From: Candidatus Chlorohelix allophototropha
GTDB taxonomy: Bacteria; Chloroflexota; Chloroflexia; Chloroheliales; Chloroheliaceae
Assembly: GCF_030389965.1 (NCBI RefSeq)
Contig: NZ_CP128400.1
Span: 124,001 to 188,000 of the forward strand
Length of the DNA: 64,000 nt
Reading direction: 5' to 3'
Below the pieces are notes generated by a model. It was given only the letters and a program-made list of their open reading frames with translations, searched no databases and had not been told where the DNA came from. This document shows, piece after piece, positions 7,987 to 64,000 of the stretch. The translations under genes and the position numbers were made by a program. Position 1 is the first letter of the stretch; the number at the start of each line of letters is the position of its first letter.

Positions 7987-9501
7987 TCATTTCCCGGCTC
8001 TTTTGCGGGCTTCCTGCCAGAGCGTTTCCAGTTCGGGCAGTTCCATTTTGTGACCGTCCAAATTGCGTTCATGCAATAGCTTTTCCCACTCGGTGAAACG
8101 CTTGCGAAATTTCAAATTGGCAAGGCGCAAGGCTTCCTCTGCATCCACCTTTAGGTCACGGGCAGCCGCACACATTACCATGAACACGTCGCCGATTTCC
8201 TCGACTAATTCCTCATGGTTGGTGGTGTGGCGCACCTCCTCAATTTCTTCTACCAGTTTGTCTAGCACCTGATCTAGATTGCGCCAGACGAAACCAAGAC
8301 TGGCGGCTTTGCGCTGCAAGTTTTGCGCTTGTAACAGCGCGGGCATTTCGTGTGGTACGCCCCCTAGCACCGATTGCTCTTCTTCGCTTTTTCCCGCCCG
8401 TTCAATTTTTTTGAGCTGTTCCCAGTTATGCACCACTTCTTCTGCGCCATTTACGTTGGTTACTCCGAATACATGGGGATGGCGATGAATCATCTTGAGG
8501 GAAAGCTCACGCATTACCTCGCGAATATCGTACTCGCCTTCGTCCGCCCCGATTTGGGCGTGGAGTACCACCTGCAAAAGCAAATCACCGAACTCCTCTA
8601 CCAATTTCTCCGGCGCTTCGTCCAGCGCATGAATCACTTCGTAGGTTTCTTCTATTAGGTAGCGTTTCAAGCTGGTGTGGGTTTGCTCACGATCCCAAGG
8701 ACAGCCTCCCGGTCCGCGTAGTCGCGCCAGAATATATTGCACATTGGCGAAACTGCCTGTTGCTTCAAGAATCGGCAAAGGTGGCACATACACACAGGTT
8801 AGGTGGTCAGTCCATTCGGGGTGTCGGTCTAGCTCAAAGAGGGGAATATCCAACCGCGCTTGTTCACCCGGCACACCTGCCCCCCGTAGCAGTGTAACCT
8901 GATGCCCATCGGGATAATCTTCCATAAGCGCCAGTTTAACTGCACTGGCAAGCCGTTGGTTATACACCTGTCCCACCAGCAACGGGCGCAAAATCGGTAA
9001 CTCTAGCCCCTTCTCGCGGGGCAGATGACTTTCAGGACGTGCCGCCAGTTCCAGCGCATCCAGAATCGTCAGGCTATCCTGTAAAGGGTCAAGCGTCAGC
9101 ACATCAAGCGCGGGTTCGATAAAGCTCAAGCCATCCACGATTTCAATTGCTATCCCTGCCTCGCGCGCTTTTGCCAACAGACGGGTTACGCTACTTTCGC
9201 CCACTAATGGATGACCCGGTACGGCATAAGCTATCGGTTTTGCGCTCTCTTTTGCTATTGCCAACAGCCTATCGACAATCGCTCCATAAACCGCCTCGAA
9301 GCTCTCGAATCGGTCGTAATAATCATCAAACGACTCTAGCTTAACTTCGGGTGGCAAATGCGAAACGGTGGGATGTTTGGCAGTGCGTAGCCAGACCGTT
9401 CCGGCTTCGCGCATAGCTCTTAACGCGCCAAACGTTAGATGATCGGGATTGCCGGGACCCAACCCAATAACTATGATTTTAACGGTTGGAGGATTTTCCA
9501 T
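7987..9501 (-). CDS. mazG: MazG-type nucleotide pyrophosphohydrolase with N-terminal tetrapyrrole-methylase-like domain
   Basis: A 504-residue, two-domain protein like Bacillus YabN. Residues 1-230 resemble the tetrapyrrole (corrin/porphyrin) methylase fold, starting IIVIGLGPGNPDHLT. Residues about 265-500 are MazG, with GGCPWDREQTHTSL, the metal-binding EETYEVIHALD and EEFGDLLLQVVLHAQ helices, and a second EEIEEVRH/EEIGDVFMV half. The MazG domain hydrolyses nucleoside triphosphates to monophosphates and pyrophosphate (house-cleaning). The role of the methylase-like half is unproven in this family. It lies 15 bases downstream of a small membrane-protein gene on the same strand and converges with the ABC-2 pair. 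Confidence 0.9.
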   Translation of the reverse strand: MENPPTVKIIVIGLGPGNPDHLTFGALRAMREAGTVWLRTAKHPTVSHLPPEVKLESFDDYYDRFESFEAVYGAIVDRLLAIAKESAKPIAYAVPGHPLVGESSVTRLLAKAREAGIAIEIVDGLSFIEPALDVLTLDPLQDSLTILDALELAARPESHLPREKGLELPILRPLLVGQVYNQRLASAVKLALMEDYPDGHQVTLLRGAGVPGEQARLDIPLFELDRHPEWTDHLTCVYVPPLPILEATGSFANVQYILARLRGPGGCPWDREQTHTSLKRYLIEETYEVIHALDEAPEKLVEEFGDLLLQVVLHAQIGADEGEYDIREVMRELSLKMIHRHPHVFGVTNVNGAEEVVHNWEQLKKIERAGKSEEEQSVLGGVPHEMPALLQAQNLQRKAASLGFVWRNLDQVLDKLVEEIEEVRHTTNHEELVEEIGDVFMVMCAAARDLKVDAEEALRLANLKFRKRFTEWEKLLHERNLDGHKMELPELETLWQEARKRAGK

Positions 9502-55781: not shown

Positions 55782-56390
55782 CTATTTTGCCGATAAAGTA
55801 TAGCTTTTTATAATTCGCCAGTTCATATAACACCAGTAATCCTGCGCATCCCATTCGCCCGGTTTCTGCAAGTTAAACTCAACCAATTGCACAATATTGC
55901 CCCACAGGCTTTCTTGTGGCATTGTCCGGTAAAGCTCCAAGCAAAAAGCCTTTATTTGGTGTAACAAGCCTGTATCGGAAGGTAAGTCGCTGAAAGCTAG
56001 AGTCATGTGCGGATTATATCTGGTTGAAGCTCGCCTCTTTCGTCCGTATTCGCTCAAAAAGGGCAGTAATTCCTCCCGAATATTTGCTTGCAAATTCACT
56101 AAATCGGGATGCTTTTCCATTTCCAACCGGATAAAATATTCGGTCTCCAGCCTGAAAGCTAACGGAAAGGCTTTATGACCGGGCAGAATCCGGTCAAGGG
56201 CAGCAATTAACTCGTTTTCCCCAAATCCCTCTTCTAGGTGTAATAAAGCAAAGAGAGTACAATGCGGCATAAATTTCCCAGCCGCTTCTAGCCCATAATT
56301 TTGCTTGAGTAATAGATGAGCTAACCCAATTTTATAAGCCAACTCAGGGGGTGGGATGAAATAAACCCCATAAGTTTTCTGCCCCGTCAT
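55782..56390 (-). CDS. 2H (LigT-like) phosphoesterase, candidate PhnP replacement
   Basis: A 202-residue protein with the two His-x-Thr motifs of the 2H family: PHCTLF near residue 43 and PHMTLAF near residue 128. The start YGVYFIPPPELAYKIGLAHLL resembles DUF1045-type phosphonate-operon proteins, but full membership is not proven. 2H enzymes open or form cyclic phosphate esters. The C-P lyase pathway yields a 5-phosphoribosyl 1,2-cyclic phosphate that PhnP opens in E. coli; no phnP is seen here. Placement 18 bases after phnM makes this a candidate for that step. Confidence 0.8.
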   Translation of the reverse strand: MTGQKTYGVYFIPPPELAYKIGLAHLLLKQNYGLEAAGKFMPHCTLFALLHLEEGFGENELIAALDRILPGHKAFPLAFRLETEYFIRLEMEKHPDLVNLQANIREELLPFLSEYGRKRRASTRYNPHMTLAFSDLPSDTGLLHQIKAFCLELYRTMPQESLWGNIVQLVEFNLQKPGEWDAQDYWCYMNWRIIKSYTLSAK

Positions 56391-56408: not shown

Positions 56409-57698
56409 TCATTTCTTGCCCAAGCTTTGTGTGAGAGGGGCTAGGGATGAAGGTTGGGCAGAAAAATGATGCGCGTCAGGATAAGCCGCAAGCGATGAAA
56501 CTGAAACGGGTTTTCCGCTTATCAGCAACTTGCGGACAATGTAGAGTTGGGGTTTAGTCCGAGTTTCCACCACGATTAAATCCGCCAACAAACCGGGTTC
56601 AAGGCTGCCTGTTACTTTCTCTAACCCCACTACTTTGGCTGCGTTTGTTGTTACAAGCTTAACAGCTTCAACAAGACTCATGACTTTTTGTTCAACCAGC
56701 ATAAAAATGGCATGCAGCAGGGTGGAAGGCGCGTAATCTGCTACCAACACATCCAGCAGGTTTTGCTGGATAAATTCCATCACGCTGATATTACCGGTAT
56801 GCGAACCGCCTCTGACAATATTGGGAGACCCTGCAATAACCGGGAGACCAAGTTCTTTGGCGCGGGTGGCTGCCTCTAGATTAATCGGAAATTCGCAGAC
56901 CCTTATACCTCGTCGGTATAAGTCATTTACAGTAGCGGCGCTATCATCATCATGTCCGGCTATAATAATTCCGGGCGTATTTTGTAACAAAGCGGTAGCT
57001 TGATTTAATTGGTGTTCACGAATTTGTTCGGTCTGTGCCTTTAGTTGCCACAACTCATTTTCGCGTGCATCAACTACCTCTTCACTGTTCCCCGCCGGAC
57101 CTAGCAGCGATTTTATCATCTTGCGTAAAACCGGACGTTGGGCATACTGACCCTGTCCGGGCGAATGGTCATTGAGGGACAAATAGTGCGTGAGTTCGGC
57201 GGCAAGAGGGTTTTGCATCACTCTTAAAATCCCATCGAAAGCCCCCGCACTACGCAAATCGCAGCGATAAAGGAGATGATGATGGAGAAAGGCAAAATCA
57301 GAATTGCTGAATTCTAGCAACTGGTTTGCCATTGCTTCGGCATTCGCCACAGTGCGGTCGCGTAGAAATATACCCGCATCAAAAGAAACAGCATGATAGG
57401 TTCTGGTTACTCCGGCGGTAGCCAACGCCCCTTCCATCTGGTGAAAAGCCAGTTCAGGCGGTAAAAAGACTCCTTTTCGCGGCTGCAAAGTTTTCTCATA
57501 GCTGTCATCATGCAAGTTTATAACGCCCGGCATAATGAAATTGCCTTTGGCATCCAATGTATGAGAATTAGCAGGGTACAGGCGTTCATTTATTTCAACA
57601 ATTCTGCCCGCCTCTATAACAACGCTTCCAGCATCCAAAACCTTTTCGGGGGTAACCAACCGCCCATTGGTAATAATTGTGGTTTGGGAAGGTTCCAC
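56409..57698 (-). CDS. phnM: Alpha-D-ribose 1-methylphosphonate 5-triphosphate diphosphatase
   Basis: A 429-residue amidohydrolase that removes pyrophosphate from the ribosyl phosphonate triphosphate made by PhnGHIL. Family hallmarks are FIMPGVINLHDDSYEKTLQPRKGVFLPPELAFHQMEGALATAGVTRTYHAVSFD, HHHLLYRCD, IIAGHDDDSA and GSPNIVRGGSHTGNISV. Metal ligands come from LHDD and the later His residues. The start is GTG at 57698 with AAAGGAAA upstream. It lies 14 bases after phnL. Confidence 0.95.
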   Translation of the reverse strand: MEPSQTTIITNGRLVTPEKVLDAGSVVIEAGRIVEINERLYPANSHTLDAKGNFIMPGVINLHDDSYEKTLQPRKGVFLPPELAFHQMEGALATAGVTRTYHAVSFDAGIFLRDRTVANAEAMANQLLEFSNSDFAFLHHHLLYRCDLRSAGAFDGILRVMQNPLAAELTHYLSLNDHSPGQGQYAQRPVLRKMIKSLLGPAGNSEEVVDARENELWQLKAQTEQIREHQLNQATALLQNTPGIIIAGHDDDSAATVNDLYRRGIRVCEFPINLEAATRAKELGLPVIAGSPNIVRGGSHTGNISVMEFIQQNLLDVLVADYAPSTLLHAIFMLVEQKVMSLVEAVKLVTTNAAKVVGLEKVTGSLEPGLLADLIVVETRTKPQLYIVRKLLISGKPVSVSSLAAYPDAHHFSAQPSSLAPLTQSLGKK

Positions 57699-57712
57699 TT
57701 AATTTCCTTTCT

Positions 57713-58417
57713 CTAAACCAATAACCGCCCATACTCCATTGTTATAACTTTGTCGGATAGGCGATTGAGCAATGCCCTGTCATGAAAAACACCGATGATG
57801 GTAACCCCGGACTGTTTGGCTTCTTCTAGAAGTGAAATTACAACCGATTGATTGCGGTCATCGAGGGCAGAGGTTGGCTCATCAAGTAGTAATAAGCGGG
57901 GTTGTCGGATGAGCGCTTGCGCGATATTAACCCGTTGCTGTTCACCGCCACTGAAAAAAACCGGATAACCCTCCCACAATTCGGAACTGATACCGAGCCG
58001 TTCCAGCATAACCTGCGCTCTCTCGGTCGCTTCTGGGCGAGGAACTCCAGCGTTAAGCAACGGGCGTGCCACCAATTCCAGAGCGGTTGTGCGGGGTTGC
58101 GCTCGTAGGAACTGAGAAACAAAGCCTATCTCGGAACCGCGCAAGCGTGTTATCTGCCTTGCGCTGGACTGTGCTAGGTCAATAACGGCATTATTTTCGA
58201 GACGATATATTATTTCACCACTGCTGGCAACATAAGTTCCGAAGATACATTTCAAGATAGAACTTTTGCCGCTGCCACTCAGCCCGGCTATGCCCACGAA
58301 AAGGCCTCTTTCGACTTCAAACGAAATGCCCTTAAAAGCGTTTATTTGCTTCCCACGCAAAATGTGCTGCGTGAAAACCTTACTCAAATTATTTATCTGG
58401 ATGTGTGTATTTTGCAT
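57713..58417 (-). CDS. phnL: C-P lyase ATP-binding protein PhnL
   Basis: A 234-residue ABC-type ATPase, not a transporter part. Walker A is AGLSGSGKSS (residues 44-53), signature FSGGEQQRVNIAQAL, Walker B LLLLDEPTSALDDRNQ and switch IIGVFHDRALLNRLSDKVI. In E. coli PhnL is needed with PhnGHI to attach the phosphonate to the ribose of ATP. It lies 10 bases after phnK. Confidence 0.93.
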   Translation of the reverse strand: MQNTHIQINNLSKVFTQHILRGKQINAFKGISFEVERGLFVGIAGLSGSGKSSILKCIFGTYVASSGEIIYRLENNAVIDLAQSSARQITRLRGSEIGFVSQFLRAQPRTTALELVARPLLNAGVPRPEATERAQVMLERLGISSELWEGYPVFFSGGEQQRVNIAQALIRQPRLLLLDEPTSALDDRNQSVVISLLEEAKQSGVTIIGVFHDRALLNRLSDKVITMEYGRLLV

Positions 58418-58427
58418 AGCTGCCCAC

Positions 58428-59306
58428 TTAACTATTACTGGAACTAACCAATAACTGGGTGTAGGGATGTTGCGGGTCTTCCAGTATTTGGTCAGTCAAT
58501 CCATTTTCCACTACTCGTCCGTTTTTCATCACCAAAGTGCGCTCGCTTAACAAGCGGATTACGCCCAAGTCGTGGGAAACCACTACAATCGCCACGCCAC
58601 TCTCACGCTGCACCTCTTTTACTAAGTCAATAACCCCCGCTTGTACTGAAACATCCAAGCCGGTGGTCATCTCATCCAACAAGAGCAAGACGGGATGATT
58701 CGCCAAAGCCTTTGCGATTTGAACACGCTGCTGCATGCCGCCGCTGAAAAAAGCCGGGTAATGATCCATCCGATTTAGCGGCACTTCCATTCGGTTCAAC
58801 AAAGCCCCGGAGCGTTCCCTGATTTCAGCCACATTGCGCCACTCTGCCGCCAAAAGTCTCTCCGCAATGTTACCGCCTGCCGTAATGTGCAAGTGCAAAC
58901 CCTGTGCCGGGTTCTGACGTACCATACCCATCACAAAATCCTGTAGATAACGCGCTTGCTGACTACTGGCTTGGAATATATCTTGTCGCCCATTCCCGAA
59001 GGATTTTAGAAAAGCCTGTCCCTTGGAGGGTGCTACATCCCCGTAGAGGCAGCGCAACAGTGTGGTTTTACCGCTACCGCTTTCTCCCACCACGCCTAGA
59101 ATCTCACCCTCGTACACCTCAAAATTAACATCGGCGCAAGCCACCAGCGTACCGCAATTGGAACAAGTATTAGAGTCTGTTTCCGGTCCGGTTAACTCTA
59201 GGCAGCGCGGACAACCGTGTCCGTAAATACGGGTGAGATTTTCAACCACCAACAAGGGGGTCTCCACCTCCACGTTTGTTTGTTTTGGGGCTGTTTCGGT
59301 TATCAT
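58428..59306 (-). CDS. phnK: C-P lyase ATP-binding protein PhnK with a four-Cys insertion
   Basis: A 292-residue ABC-type ATPase binding the PhnGHIJ core. Walker A is GESGSGKT (residues 74-81), signature FSGGMQQRVQIAKAL, and the C-terminus is PQHPYTQLLVSS. Before Walker A there is an extra segment with paired Cys (Cys32, Cys35, Cys48, Cys51: CPRC and CSNC), which looks like a zinc ribbon or metal site; to my knowledge E. coli PhnK lacks it. It starts inside the phnJ stop (ATGA), so translation is coupled. Confidence 0.93.
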   Translation of the reverse strand: MITETAPKQTNVEVETPLLVVENLTRIYGHGCPRCLELTGPETDSNTCSNCGTLVACADVNFEVYEGEILGVVGESGSGKTTLLRCLYGDVAPSKGQAFLKSFGNGRQDIFQASSQQARYLQDFVMGMVRQNPAQGLHLHITAGGNIAERLLAAEWRNVAEIRERSGALLNRMEVPLNRMDHYPAFFSGGMQQRVQIAKALANHPVLLLLDEMTTGLDVSVQAGVIDLVKEVQRESGVAIVVVSHDLGVIRLLSERTLVMKNGRVVENGLTDQILEDPQHPYTQLLVSSSNS

Positions 59307-60196
59307 CCGGCGAACTCCTTTTGCATTTCACGCTCTGCTGCTTTCTTTGCGACTCGTTCATCGCAGTAGGCGGTGTCCGAACACATATAGGTCTTTTGCC
59401 CTGCCTCGGTGGTTATCTCATCCAAGAAAGAGTGTTCCGCTCCGCAACGCTGGCAGCGTATCCCGTGGAAATCCTCTACAGTGAAGGGGTAATCCTCGAA
59501 ATCGAGTGGTATTACCGCAGTACGCGGCGGAACCGCATACAACCTTTTTTCGCGTCCTGCCCCGAACAGCGAAAGATGCTCAGCGTTGTGAAGTTTCTCC
59601 ACATCCCAACGTGGGATTGGGCTAGGAGCCATCACATACCGTCCATTCACCATTACAGGGTAACTGTAGGCACGCGCTAAAAGCCCATGCTTTACAATTT
59701 CTTCGTATAACGCCACCCACATTCGGCTGTAATTCTTATCGGCATGCATTCGCCGTGTGGCGTTTTCGGAGCGTTCCACCAAACGCAATGGCTCTGGCAA
59801 TGGAACTTGCAAGACTAACAATTGTCCCGCCTGCATTTTTTCTTCTGGAATGCGGTGGCGGGTTTGGATTATAGTGGCTTCGGTAGTTTGGAAGGTGGTG
59901 GTAACGTCTGGTGCGGTGCGCTCAATCAGGCGGCGAATGTTGGCAGCATTAACTCCCGCGTCAGTTCCCTGATCAATTACTTTAACTATATCTCCCTGCC
60001 CGATTAGAGAAAGAGTTATTTGCAGACCGCCAGTACCCCAACCGCGCCCGATGGGTAATTCTCGCGAACCGAATGGCACTTGGTATCCGGGTATGGCAAC
60101 GGCTTTAAGTAAGTTGCGCCGGATTTCTCTTTTGCTGCCTTCATCTAGGAAAGCGTAATTATAATTTTCTTCGGTGGTAATTAAATCTTTCAGCAT
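59303..60196 (-). CDS. phnJ: C-P lyase, alpha-D-ribose 1-methylphosphonate 5-phosphate C-P-lyase
   Basis: A 297-residue radical-SAM-type enzyme that cuts the carbon-phosphorus bond. The C-terminal cysteine set is Cys248, Cys251, Cys272 and Cys278 (CQRC, then MCSDTAYC), matching the family pattern. Other hallmarks are FLDEGSKREIRRNLLKAVAIPGYQVPFGSRELPIGRGWGTGGLQ and MWVALYEEIVKHG. The start shares one base with the phnI stop (TAATG). Confidence 0.97.
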   Translation of the reverse strand: MLKDLITTEENYNYAFLDEGSKREIRRNLLKAVAIPGYQVPFGSRELPIGRGWGTGGLQITLSLIGQGDIVKVIDQGTDAGVNAANIRRLIERTAPDVTTTFQTTEATIIQTRHRIPEEKMQAGQLLVLQVPLPEPLRLVERSENATRRMHADKNYSRMWVALYEEIVKHGLLARAYSYPVMVNGRYVMAPSPIPRWDVEKLHNAEHLSLFGAGREKRLYAVPPRTAVIPLDFEDYPFTVEDFHGIRCQRCGAEHSFLDEITTEAGQKTYMCSDTAYCDERVAKKAAEREMQKEFAG

Positions 60197-61326
60197 TACT
60201 TTTTCCTTGCTTCCGCAGCATATGCCAAGCGGGTTTCTTCGCGAGAGCGGTCAAGACTGGACTGGAAGGTAACATAGTGTGGCAACTTTAGATGCTCTAC
60301 AAACCCACTCGATTCAACGCTGTCTATGTGATAAAGCACAAATTCTTGGTCGCTGCTAGGGGCATCTCCGCCTATGTCCATCGCTCTATCTAGGATAGAC
60401 ATCGAAATCGCTTTGCGTTCGTTCTGTCCATAAACCAAGCCATAGCCTAGCTCATACAATGGCTCGGCTTTTTCTTCATTATTGTTTGTCGATTCTTGTT
60501 GCGCAATTCCGTCTTTATCCCGACCCACAATACTGTAGTCGTGGTTTAAGGCTTCTACTTCCGTAACCCGCAACTGCCCTATTGTGACCGGATTACCGGT
60601 GAGTGGATGCAAAAACTCGACCGGAACTTTCCCGTAGCGCAATTCCGAAATGGTAGGATGAACCATCCCATAGCCACGCAACGAACTATAGCCTAACGCC
60701 ACCATCGCTCCCGTTTCGCCCCGTGCTAATGTTTGCAACCGAGCGGAACGAGGGGCGGGAAATTTCAGCGTATCTCTGGTGATGTCAAAAGGTTCTTGCT
60801 CAGAAGGGGCGAGTGCGGTAAGCAAGCCTTCCGCCCGTAACAAGTCTGAAACCCTTGAAAACTTGGGCATGTCTGTTGTCGCTTTTGGTTGCTGGAAGGC
60901 AGATTCAGGGGCGCGAATTTCTTCTATGAGATTGAAATCAAGTAGGCGCTGAGTGTAATCGCGCGTACGACCAAGCACTTGACCACCGGGGATATTTTTA
61001 AACGCGCTGGAAATTCGCCGCAAAACTTTCATTCGGCTTGTATCAATCGGCAAGGAGTAGCCCAATCGCTCTAGGGTGGACTTATAAGCGCGGAGTAAAA
61101 ACCCCGCCTCCATCAAATCCCCTTCTGCCTGTTTTAAAGCCAACGCTGCCAACTTTTCGTCATACAATCCGGCTTCGCTCATTACCTGATCTACCGCCAT
61201 ACGTTGTTGCTCAATAAGCTGGTCTATTTGCAATAGTTCGCTATGACATTGCAATCTGCCGAGTTTTACCAGTTCCTCAGCGGCAAGGATTGCATCTATA
61301 CCGCCTTTTACCGCTACGTAACCCAT
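60196..61326 (-). CDS. phnI: C-P lyase core subunit PhnI
   Basis: A 376-residue core subunit; with PhnG, PhnH and PhnL it replaces the adenine of ATP by the phosphonate (nucleosidase activity). Diagnostic phrases are MGYVAVKGGIDAILAAEELVKLGRL, TRDTLKFPAPRSARLQTLARGETGAMVALGYSSLRGYGMVHPTISELRYG and EFVLYHIDSVESSGFVEHLKLPHYVTFQ. The C-terminus is basic (RKK). It begins one base after phnH ends. Confidence 0.97.
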   Translation of the reverse strand: MGYVAVKGGIDAILAAEELVKLGRLQCHSELLQIDQLIEQQRMAVDQVMSEAGLYDEKLAALALKQAEGDLMEAGFLLRAYKSTLERLGYSLPIDTSRMKVLRRISSAFKNIPGGQVLGRTRDYTQRLLDFNLIEEIRAPESAFQQPKATTDMPKFSRVSDLLRAEGLLTALAPSEQEPFDITRDTLKFPAPRSARLQTLARGETGAMVALGYSSLRGYGMVHPTISELRYGKVPVEFLHPLTGNPVTIGQLRVTEVEALNHDYSIVGRDKDGIAQQESTNNNEEKAEPLYELGYGLVYGQNERKAISMSILDRAMDIGGDAPSSDQEFVLYHIDSVESSGFVEHLKLPHYVTFQSSLDRSREETRLAYAAEARKK

Positions 61327-62007
61327 CTAAAAATCCTCCCCTATTCGTCCCTCTTCCAGAATGGACAGGCGGGTGCTGCGTGGCAGACCGACCAATACAC
61401 CTCCCGGAGTTAGCCAGAAAACATCTATGCCCAGAGGGTAAGCGGCATTGACCTCTCCAAGAGAAACAAAAAAGGTGGCGTTTGTGCCTGCCACCCAGAG
61501 TCTTTGTCCAAGTTTTACGCCGGGTCCGCTCAATTCCAGTAAAGCGCCTTTCTTACCTTCCGGGTTTTCTCCCAACAGGTCGGGTACTAGGCATATAAGG
61601 GTTGCGGACGAGTCAGGGTAAATAAGGTTACCGGGCTTTAGCTGAGCAGGTAGCGAAGCAACCGGAGGCTGTAGAGTAAACACATAATCGGCTTTGTCCC
61701 GAGGAACACTGCGACAATTGGCGCTTGTGCAAATTACGCTTGAAAGGTCGGCAGCAATTGTTTCATCGCCCAATAAGCAAAAAGTAACTTCATGGTCTAA
61801 GATGGTTGCGAGAAATGCGCCCAACGTTTCAAAGTGGGCGTAATTCCGGGAAGAATTAGGTAAAGTGTTCCCAAAGAAATCCCCGGTCTTGGGTAAATGG
61901 AAAACCTGACCGGGGTTTGCCAATGCATCCAACATTACTCGGAAAATTTTCTGACTGTCACGGGTGTGGTCAAAACGGCGGGCGGGTGTTAATGAAATAG
62001 CGCTCAA
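61327..62007 (-). CDS. phnH: C-P lyase core subunit PhnH
   Basis: A 226-residue core subunit. The TTG at 62007 is chosen as start: GGAGG (62015-62019), inside the end of phnG, lies 7 bases upstream, and this gives ISLTPARRFDHTRDSQKIFRVMLDALANPGQVFHLP, the usual N-terminus. Starting at 62061 would add 18 unrelated residues. The start lies just after the phnG stop (62010-62012), so translation is coupled. Confidence 0.92.
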   Translation of the reverse strand: MSAISLTPARRFDHTRDSQKIFRVMLDALANPGQVFHLPKTGDFFGNTLPNSSRNYAHFETLGAFLATILDHEVTFCLLGDETIAADLSSVICTSANCRSVPRDKADYVFTLQPPVASLPAQLKPGNLIYPDSSATLICLVPDLLGENPEGKKGALLELSGPGVKLGQRLWVAGTNATFFVSLGEVNAAYPLGIDVFWLTPGGVLVGLPRSTRLSILEEGRIGEDF

Positions 62008-62009
62008 GC

Positions 62010-62435
62010 TCAAGCCTCCATTTCGTCGAAATTTACTTTGGTAGCCGCGATTGTTGCCCACTCTGCGGCATCTTTTTCTTGCTGGAGTTGTGACATTAAG
62101 GTCAACGTTTCCAGTATATCCGGTGAAAGCGGATGGGATGCTTCCAAAGCAGCGTCACAAATAGCTCCGGCGAGGGCGTGCATCCGGTCGCTGCCGAGAA
62201 CTAGCATGTATCCCGTTCCGCCCTGAAGTTGCACCTCCGCTTCCGTTACAAGGGCTTCCCCGAAGTTAAATATTTCACCTTTGGCAGTTTCGCGAGCGCG
62301 AATCATCATTATCGCCGGGTGAGGTTGCCGAGTTATTTCTAGTTCAATTCCTGAATCCAGCAAGCGGTCAGCCATCACCACCAGAGGCTCAGATGGGCCG
62401 GCTGCCATTATTTCAAAGCGTTTTTCTCTATCCAT
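62010..62435 (-). CDS. phnG: C-P lyase core subunit PhnG
   Basis: A 141-residue core subunit, first gene of the phn operon. MVMADRLL-type N-terminal region, then EAEVQLQGGTGYMLVLGSDRMHALAGAICDAALEA, the family signature. It begins with ATG at 62435, about 50 bases after the predicted transcript start. The leader has only a weak AAAGG ribosome site. Confidence 0.94.
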   Translation of the reverse strand: MDREKRFEIMAAGPSEPLVVMADRLLDSGIELEITRQPHPAIMMIRARETAKGEIFNFGEALVTEAEVQLQGGTGYMLVLGSDRMHALAGAICDAALEASHPLSPDILETLTLMSQLQQEKDAAEWATIAATKVNFDEMEA

Positions 62436-62467
62436 TTTGGCTTACAAACCTTTTTATGTTATTATTT

Positions 62468-62491
62468 AATTGCGTAAAGCTTTACGCAATT
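62468..62491. promoter_or_regulatory. Perfect 24-bp palindrome, candidate operator
   Basis: Half-site AATTGCGTAAAG (62468-62479) is followed directly by its exact complement (62480-62491). It lies immediately after the -10 box of the phnG promoter and covers the expected transcript start. It also lies 45 bases before the divergent regulator. Length, symmetry and place fit a LacI-family operator. Confidence 0.85.
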
Positions 62492-62520
62492 TTTATAGCA
62501 TTCAAAAACAGTCCTGTCAA
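62492..62520 (-). promoter_or_regulatory. Promoter of the phn operon
   Basis: Read on the minus strand: TTGACA (62520-62515), a 17-base spacer (62514-62498) and TATAAA (62497-62492). The predicted start near 62485 falls inside the palindrome, so a bound repressor would block it. Confidence 0.8.
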
Positions 62521-62535
62521 TAGCGAATTTTGAAA

Positions 62536-64000
62536 ATGATAAAATCAGAAGATGGGAAAGAACGGCTGGTTTTGGCTATAAACCCCGTAATAGGACACAA
62601 CCTAGTCAGCCAAGCTGATAAAATAAAGACCCTAGAACAATACCTTGAGCAGGTGTTGGAGATCCCTGTACAGGTTGGGTTGTGGGAAAATTACGAAGAA
62701 ACCCTAAACGGTATGGAGCGCGGAGAAATTGATGCGGCTCGATTGGGGTTATATGCCTTTGCTCAGGCGCAGGCTCGTTTTGGGGCGCGTGCTCTCGCCA
62801 ACGCTATTGAGGTTTCTGCCGGAGACAATGCCCCACCAGTGCCTTACCGGAGCGTTATCTTTACTCGTAAGGATACAGGGATTGTCGGGTTAATCCAATT
62901 AAAAGGACAGGAATTTGGTTTTGTTGACCGAAATTCGTCAACAGGCTACCTAGTGCCTTCTCTCATGCTGGATCAGGCAGGCTTAAAGCCTGCTACCGAC
63001 CTAAAACCACATTTCTTACTAGGTCATAATACAGTGGTAGAGGCTGTTTGCCAAGGAAAACTGTTTGCCGGAGCGACGATGCAATCAGCCTACTTGCACC
63101 ATTTACAAGAACACCCCACTTGCAGTTTGCAGTTGCTGGCTACTTCCCCACTTCTATCCAGAGGACCGGTGGCAGTTCGACCGGGGTTGCCCCCCCGGCT
63201 TGAGCATAAATTATTGCAAGCATTGGTACAGCTAGACCAGCGTGTACCGGAAGCAGCCTCATTACTTATTCCTACCAACCAACGCTTTACCCCAGCAGCA
63301 CAACGTGAAATGACCCTGAAAACCGTGGCGGAATTAGCCGGGGTGAGTTATGGGACTGTATCTCGCGCTATAAACGGGCGCGCCCGGATTGCTCCAGACA
63401 CGACTGCTCGCATTTTAAAACTGGTGGAAGAATTGGGTTACCGTCCCAACTCAAATGCTCGCAACTTACACCAGAATCGGGGCGATTTAATTGGGCTGCT
63501 CATACCCACTTTGCAGATTCCCGCACTGGATGAGATCGTAGCCGGAATACAGGCAGTATTCAGTGAAGTAGGTTTGCAATTGGTGGTATGTCCAGCGGTT
63601 TTAAACGGAATGGCGGGGGAGAGCAGAAAAGCTTTTTTTGAACTGCTGTATAACAACCGTCTGGAAGGTATGATAATGACCCAGTATGATGCGGCTACTA
63701 GGGAAGCCGGTGAATTGGCGCGGAGTGGACGACCTTATGCTTTGTTAGAACAGGATTTGTTAGGAGAAGGTCTTATTACTGCCAGAAATTGGATAGAGGT
63801 ACAGGGACACCACCGTATAGCCTTAGTACAAGAACAGGGTTCGTTGCTGGAAGCAGGTTTCATGCGTCAAGTCTTCGCCCGACAAGCTGCTCCAGAACTA
63901 GAATTTACCGAAGAAATCAACACTATTTCTAGCTGGCTAGAAACAATTTTGCAAAAACCGGAGCCGCCTACCCTTATTTTCTGTTCAGGCGACCGAACTG
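62536..64000 (+). CDS. PhnD-like domain fused to a LacI-family regulator, partial
   Basis: The frame is open from ATG 62536 to the window end: 488 residues and still open. Residues about 10-245 match the PhnD phosphonate-binding family (LEQYLEQVLEIPVQVGLWENYEETLNGMERGEIDAARLG; PYRSVIFTRKDTGI; GQEFGFVDRNSSTGYLVPSLML; LLATSPLLSRGPVAVRP). There is no signal peptide, so it is cytoplasmic. Residues about 259-314 are a LacI helix-turn-helix (MTLKTVAELAGVSYGTVSRAINGRARIAPDTTARILKLVEELGYRPN). A LacI-type sensor domain then starts (LIGLLIPTLQIPALDEIVAGIQAVFSEVG). No ribosome site is visible. Probably a phosphonate-sensing repressor of phnG and of itself. Confidence 0.88.
   Translation, partial: MIKSEDGKERLVLAINPVIGHNLVSQADKIKTLEQYLEQVLEIPVQVGLWENYEETLNGMERGEIDAARLGLYAFAQAQARFGARALANAIEVSAGDNAPPVPYRSVIFTRKDTGIVGLIQLKGQEFGFVDRNSSTGYLVPSLMLDQAGLKPATDLKPHFLLGHNTVVEAVCQGKLFAGATMQSAYLHHLQEHPTCSLQLLATSPLLSRGPVAVRPGLPPRLEHKLLQALVQLDQRVPEAASLLIPTNQRFTPAAQREMTLKTVAELAGVSYGTVSRAINGRARIAPDTTARILKLVEELGYRPNSNARNLHQNRGDLIGLLIPTLQIPALDEIVAGIQAVFSEVGLQLVVCPAVLNGMAGESRKAFFELLYNNRLEGMIMTQYDAATREAGELARSGRPYALLEQDLLGEGLITARNWIEVQGHHRIALVQEQGSLLEAGFMRQVFARQAAPELEFTEEINTISSWLETILQKPEPPTLIFCSGDRT

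Follow-up and report, generated by a model that had tools for sequence, protein, structure and literature searches.

LacI-family regulators such as CcpA, LacI, PurR and RbsR join an N-terminal helix-turn-helix (HTH) to a core of the type I binding-protein fold and use even palindromic operators at promoters. LysR proteins also employ a binding-protein fold as sensor, here of type II, behind an N-terminal LysR HTH and with co-inducer logic. Two LysR-type proteins, PhnR and PalR, exert phosphonate-responsive control, and the phosphonate regulators covered in a 2023 review are PhoBR, PhnF and LysR-type proteins, with CbrAB and NtrBC for 2-aminoethylphosphonate; no LacI-family phosphonate regulator appears in that review (PMC10574752). 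PhnF, a GntR-family phn repressor without a PhnD-type domain, is encoded beside phn genes; in M. smegmatis its gene and phnDCE are transcribed divergently, its sites lie in the promoter region common to both, and PhnD is part of the phosphate transporter whose genes PhnF represses (PMC7866108).

The gene described here, whose product is likewise predicted to be a phosphonate-responsive repressor encoded beside phn genes, differs from these systems in that a true PhnD-family domain stands before a LacI-type HTH and core. Both its domain order and its operator are new within the LacI family. The architecture is mentioned neither in a survey of LacI-family regulons (PMC4052901) nor in the phosphonate review (PMC10574752), and literature text searches, with most subscription papers outside their scope, returned no earlier description. 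The gene lies at the end of the window, that is, the whole 64,000-nt stretch analysed (G000:C2:124001-188000), in Candidatus Chlorohelix allophototropha, whose genome consists of five contigs (6.09 Mb in total; contig 2, 2.45 Mb), in keeping with the five replicons published for strain L227-S17 (PMC10972752). The frame starts with the ATG at 62536 (an in-frame TTG lies at 62530), stays open through the window end and is completed by a last 224 bp beyond it, so that whole-genome reading yields a single unbroken ORF (Table 1).

Table 1. Features of the fusion gene and its divergent phn operon (positions in the window)
Feature	Position	Strand	Basis or remark
PhnD-LacI fusion gene	62536..64000, on to G000:C2:188224	+	562 aa; orthologues
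PhnD-type phosphonate-binding domain, residues 29-244, without signal peptide	62620..63267	+	PF12974, E 8.8e-44
LacI helix-turn-helix, residues 260-305	63313..63450	+	PF00356, E 5.8e-15
LacI core, type I binding-protein fold, residues 319-562, eroded effector site	63490..64000, past window	+	
Operator between phnG and fusion gene, 24-bp perfect palindrome AATTGCGTAAAGCTTTACGCAATT	62468..62491	.	predicted
Promoter toward phnG, abutting operator	62492..62520	-	TTGACA (62520-62515), N17, TATAAA (62497-62492)
Candidate promoter toward fusion gene, ending 2 nt before operator	62437..62465	+	TTGGCT, N17, TATTAT
phnG, first gene of divergent C-P lyase operon, predicted target	62010..62435	-	PF06754
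phnH	61327..62061	-	PF05845
phnI	60196..61326	-	PF05861
phnJ	59303..60196	-	PF06007
phnK, ABC-type ATPase	58428..59306	-	PF00005; name from position and homology
phnL, ABC-type ATPase	57713..58417	-	PF00005; name from position and homology
phnM, ribose 1-methylphosphonate 5-triphosphate diphosphatase	56409..57698	-	NF011990, 310.7 bits (cut-off 233)

A sequence-only reading of the window had proposed three modules in this frame, with a PhnD-like domain lacking a signal peptide over residues 10-245, and the domain searches bear it out. The N-terminal domain scores 150.1 bits against PF12974 (cut-off 27) and 122.5 bits against TIGR01098, above the cut-off of 112.05, while at 103.6 bits it stays far below the 261.1 demanded by the PhnD equivalog TIGR03431; its relatives in the PDB are PtxB, ArrX and PhnD. 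The HTH (55.3 bits against PF00356, cut-off 27) sits in the middle of the chain and not at the N-terminus as in the LacI family, and no GntR-type HTH of the PhnF type is found among the family matches of the protein. The C-terminal core remains below threshold in Pfam (Peripla_BP_3, 24.1 versus 26.5 bits). Because the predicted fold of a whole orthologue was poor (pLDDT 44.9) it was set aside, and the LacI half of the Ktedonosporobacter rubrisoli orthologue was folded alone (pLDDT 79); the resulting model matches the structures of CcpA, LacI and PurR, with a best E value of 3e-16. Neither signal peptide nor lipobox is present in any of the six fusions, whose hydrophobic maxima reach 0.4-1.9; the six neighbouring lipoprotein PhnDs, which carry a lipobox, reach 2.6-3.3. 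The fusion protein is thus predicted to be cytosolic; domains of the PhnD type usually occur outside the cell.

A search of 400 Chloroflexota genomes recovered four further full-length fusions, in K. rubrisoli, Ktedonobacteria bacterium brp13, Ktedonospora formicarum and Ktedonobacter racemifer, which are 43-50% identical to the window protein over the whole chain, plus one split copy in Dictyobacter kobayashii. The same five orthologues came out of a scan of 84,980 species made with two short peptide patterns, which distant fusions in other phyla could escape. Among Ktedonobacteria the carriers amount to 5 of 47 genomes, the split copy included; the fusion is absent from 60 nearer relatives of the window genome, and no place in the plasmid records covers 80% of the fusion query. 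That the gene might be an assembly join, a frameshift or a chance read-through of two genes is a reading to which we attach practically no probability: the D. kobayashii copy is indeed split into two frames, but four independent genomes carry the fusion unbroken with the same junction, which rules out a join or read-through. The D. kobayashii copy (L047:8678-10395) consists of two neighbouring ORFs that differ in frame and are separated by 5 bp, and both halves as well as both operators of that genome are still well conserved despite the frame break, which may reflect faulty sequencing, recent pseudogene formation or a genuine split.

All six copies adjoin phn genes. In the window the fusion is divergent from phnGHIJKLM, and behind it, after an IS5-like insertion, follow phnCED and a second phnGHIJK set. 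It and phnC are transcribed divergently in brp13, K. racemifer and K. formicarum, and it lies between phnC and phnE, on the other strand, in K. rubrisoli. In D. kobayashii, in whose genome PhnJ was not found, a phosphonatase-like HAD gene and a FAD oxidoreductase gene stand between fusion and phnC. The two C-P lyase sets of the window genome (window 56409-62435 and L006:13662-17906, equal to G000:C2:193661-197905) lie near each other and flank the fusion and phnCED; their PhnJ proteins fall into separate clades, that of the second set grouping with Ktedonobacteria, and the two sets are accordingly classified, on phylogeny, as of different type.

Several smaller features accompany these loci. 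The IS5-like insertion (about L006:8398-9298, transposase 8465-9259), bounded by inverted repeats (GAGCGTTTCTTAAAACT and its partner), lies between the fusion and phnC, just before which half an operator (TTAGCGTAAA) remains. A 2H phosphoesterase-like gene (PF13563) lies beside phnM at window 55782-56390, and ORFs judged similar by eye occur near the fusion in two Ktedonobacteria (L045:12249-12764 and L046:10743-11315); such proteins might take the place of the cyclic phosphodiesterase PhnP. The interval from phnD to the second phnG encodes a hydrophobic protein of 220 aa (L006:12956-13618) with no NCBIfam match.

Upstream of every fusion recurs the palindromic core GCGTAARGCTTTACGC. The operator is found in 6 of the 400 Chloroflexota genomes, exactly the six that carry the fusion (split copy included), a coincidence with a chance probability of 1.8e-13 if kinship is ignored, the six sequences being all from one phylum and not independent. 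It is absent from those genomes with fusion-less C-P lyase loci that were read, and in ten such loci no unfused relative of the regulator is encoded. In the window genome the palindrome between phnG and the fusion is the sole good site. The brp13 genome has another perfect copy at a distance of 570 kb, before an operon of a PhnX-like HAD hydrolase (205.8 bits, slightly under the cut-off of 218.9) and a FAD oxidoreductase (TIGR03364, 348 versus a cut-off of 285), and D. kobayashii has one operator before its HAD/FAD-oxidoreductase pair and another before phnC. FAD oxidoreductases encoded beside phnX convert 2-aminoethylphosphonates to phosphonoacetaldehyde (PMC10574752). Hence the operator marks a phosphonate regulon, and the motif follows phosphonate genes of two different pathways. 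Sites within one mismatch are found at phosphonate genes only, and two-mismatch sites elsewhere are near control level, giving no sign of a wider regulon. A perfect 16-bp core also occurs inside the first phnD codons of K. formicarum and K. racemifer (L046:6227-6243; L045, G391:C10:2356786-2356803), about 2.4 kb from the main operator, and may be an auxiliary site or a by-product of coding sequence.

At all eight intergenic sites a promoter toward the target gene precedes the operator, composed of TTGAC(A/T), a spacer of 17 or 18 nt and a -10-like hexamer that ends 4-6 nt before GCGTAA; TTGAC is invariant. These promoters score 9-11 out of 12, whereas a score of at least 9 is reached at 33 of 2800 random positions. 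The phnG promoter escaped the promoter scanner because the latter demands T at the last -10 position. With -35 and -10 elements conserved just before the operator, the transcription start falls within it, a layout that we infer to be the usual one for repression by steric block. The role in phn control that had been proposed from the sequence is strengthened by this evidence from operators and promoters. Two promoter-like sites were found versus 0.8 expected, which lends weak support to a promoter for the fusion gene itself on the other strand; since this weaker candidate, too, ends at the operator, the gene may be autoregulated. A TATAAT stands 7-8 nt before the fusion ATG in four orthologues, which suggests that their mRNA is leaderless.

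The likely ligand site was approached by aligning the PhnD-type domain with PtxB and mapping the published ligand contacts (PMC5700983). Tyr55, Tyr100, Ser130, Thr131, Ser132 and His160 of Te_PtxB correspond to Y53, Y104, S134, S135, T136 and H164, so that the oxyanion site of two Tyr, three Ser/Thr and one His is kept or Ser/Thr-swapped in the fusions, except for an Ala at the second of the three Ser/Thr positions in D. kobayashii. These kept residues make it plausible that the domain senses a phosphonate. The specificity cap differs, PtxB Tyr208 being replaced by G210 beside an invariant R209, and PtxB Asp22 is Val, Ala or Gly in the fusions. Since the cap is altered, the pocket may, as a guess, accommodate a phosphonate whose substituent is larger or acidic. 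Thus the domain shares with the PhnD/PtxB family its oxyanion site and above-cut-off family scores but differs from it in the cap, the missing export signals and the attachment to a DNA-binding protein.

The core was compared between the six fusions and six canonical LacI-family proteins of the same phylum. In LacI and PurR, the Arg of RxxGY, the Asn of ND and the Asp of GFD occupy positions that contact effectors. All three residues are lost in 6 of 6 fusions, and all six cores have a deletion of 12 residues. The core therefore looks like a dimer scaffold, although it may still bind something, given that E405, Q406 and W419 are invariant among the fusions. It is here that the sequence-only reading needs correction: the fusion, its cytosolic location and its part in phn control are supported, whereas the second sensor and the two-input switch are not. 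A working second sensor would not be the simplest reading of such a core, and a switch in which PhnD domain and LacI core each bind their own effector is distinctly unlikely; enough of the core is left for it to take the LacI fold, and it retains its invariant residues, but the effector contacts are gone and the 12 residues are deleted in that very place in all six proteins.

The reading we favour, and consider somewhat better than even, is a LacI-family phn repressor with a cytosolic PhnD-type sensor, which leaves the DNA in response to a phosphonate or an intermediate of C-P lyase inside the cell. A dimer of the fusion protein would bind the palindrome over the phn transcription start and block RNA polymerase. 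The PhnD lobes would close once the cell contains a phosphonate, or a C-P lyase intermediate that carries a phosphonate group, and this closure would pass to the HTH fused directly behind them so that the DNA is released. The core would have kept its fold and probably its dimer role while no longer reading a sugar, and the best reading would be that sensing has moved from it to the grafted PhnD domain. Against this repressor stand the invariant core residues, the competition for the oxyanion site that millimolar cytosolic phosphate would exert if the pocket were not highly selective, and the operator centre, which is GC and not CG as in canonical LacI-family sites; CG is central in 1173 of 1303 surveyed LacI-family motifs, and 49 of the 1303 factors have a different central pair (PMC4052901).

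The main rival starts from the same anatomy: the PhnD domain would bind inorganic phosphate as corepressor and strengthen repression, and phn would open when phosphate falls. C-P lyase is usually a phosphate-starvation system, which fits such a scheme, as do the kept oxyanion residues and the ability of PhnD-family proteins to bind phosphate (PMC7866108). We nevertheless regard it as unlikely, the cap being unlike that of the phosphite-specific PtxB in a way that suggests room for a substituent on the phosphorus. Control could also be coupled to transport, the PhnD domain docking on the inner face of PhnCE or on another partner and being sequestered while transport proceeds, in the way that PtsG captures Mlc. 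The domain belongs to the family of the transporter's own binding protein, and the gene lies beside phnCE; however, the permease receives PhnD proteins at its outer face, whereas the fusion is predicted to be cytosolic, and docking would not need the ligand contacts that are kept, which makes this proposal very improbable. Finally, the unusual GpC centre might indicate that the operator is the site of another regulator, the fusion acting elsewhere. There is little chance of this, since the six loci share no other regulator gene and the operator is confined to the genomes with the fusion.

As to origin, a recent duplication of the neighbouring phnD was rejected, because the PhnD domains of the fusions group in a single clade (100/100), which a long branch separates from the PhnDs of the transporters. 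This single distant clade points to one ancient fusion event. It seems to us slightly more probable than not that a LacI repressor acquired, in a single event, a binding domain of the transporter type as its sensor, and that the repressor's original ligand pocket then decayed. In that case one sensor would have taken over from another inside a single chain, an arrangement shared by two Chloroflexota classes, and the protein would be a LacI-family C-P lyase regulator, for which no precedent was found in the literature searched. It would show a one-component regulator swapping its sensor while keeping its DNA-binding frame. A cytosolic PhnD sensor linked to DNA would, with its predicted operator and promoter, amount to a ready-made phosphonate biosensor, and it looks like a new bacterial way to sense phosphonates from inside the cell.
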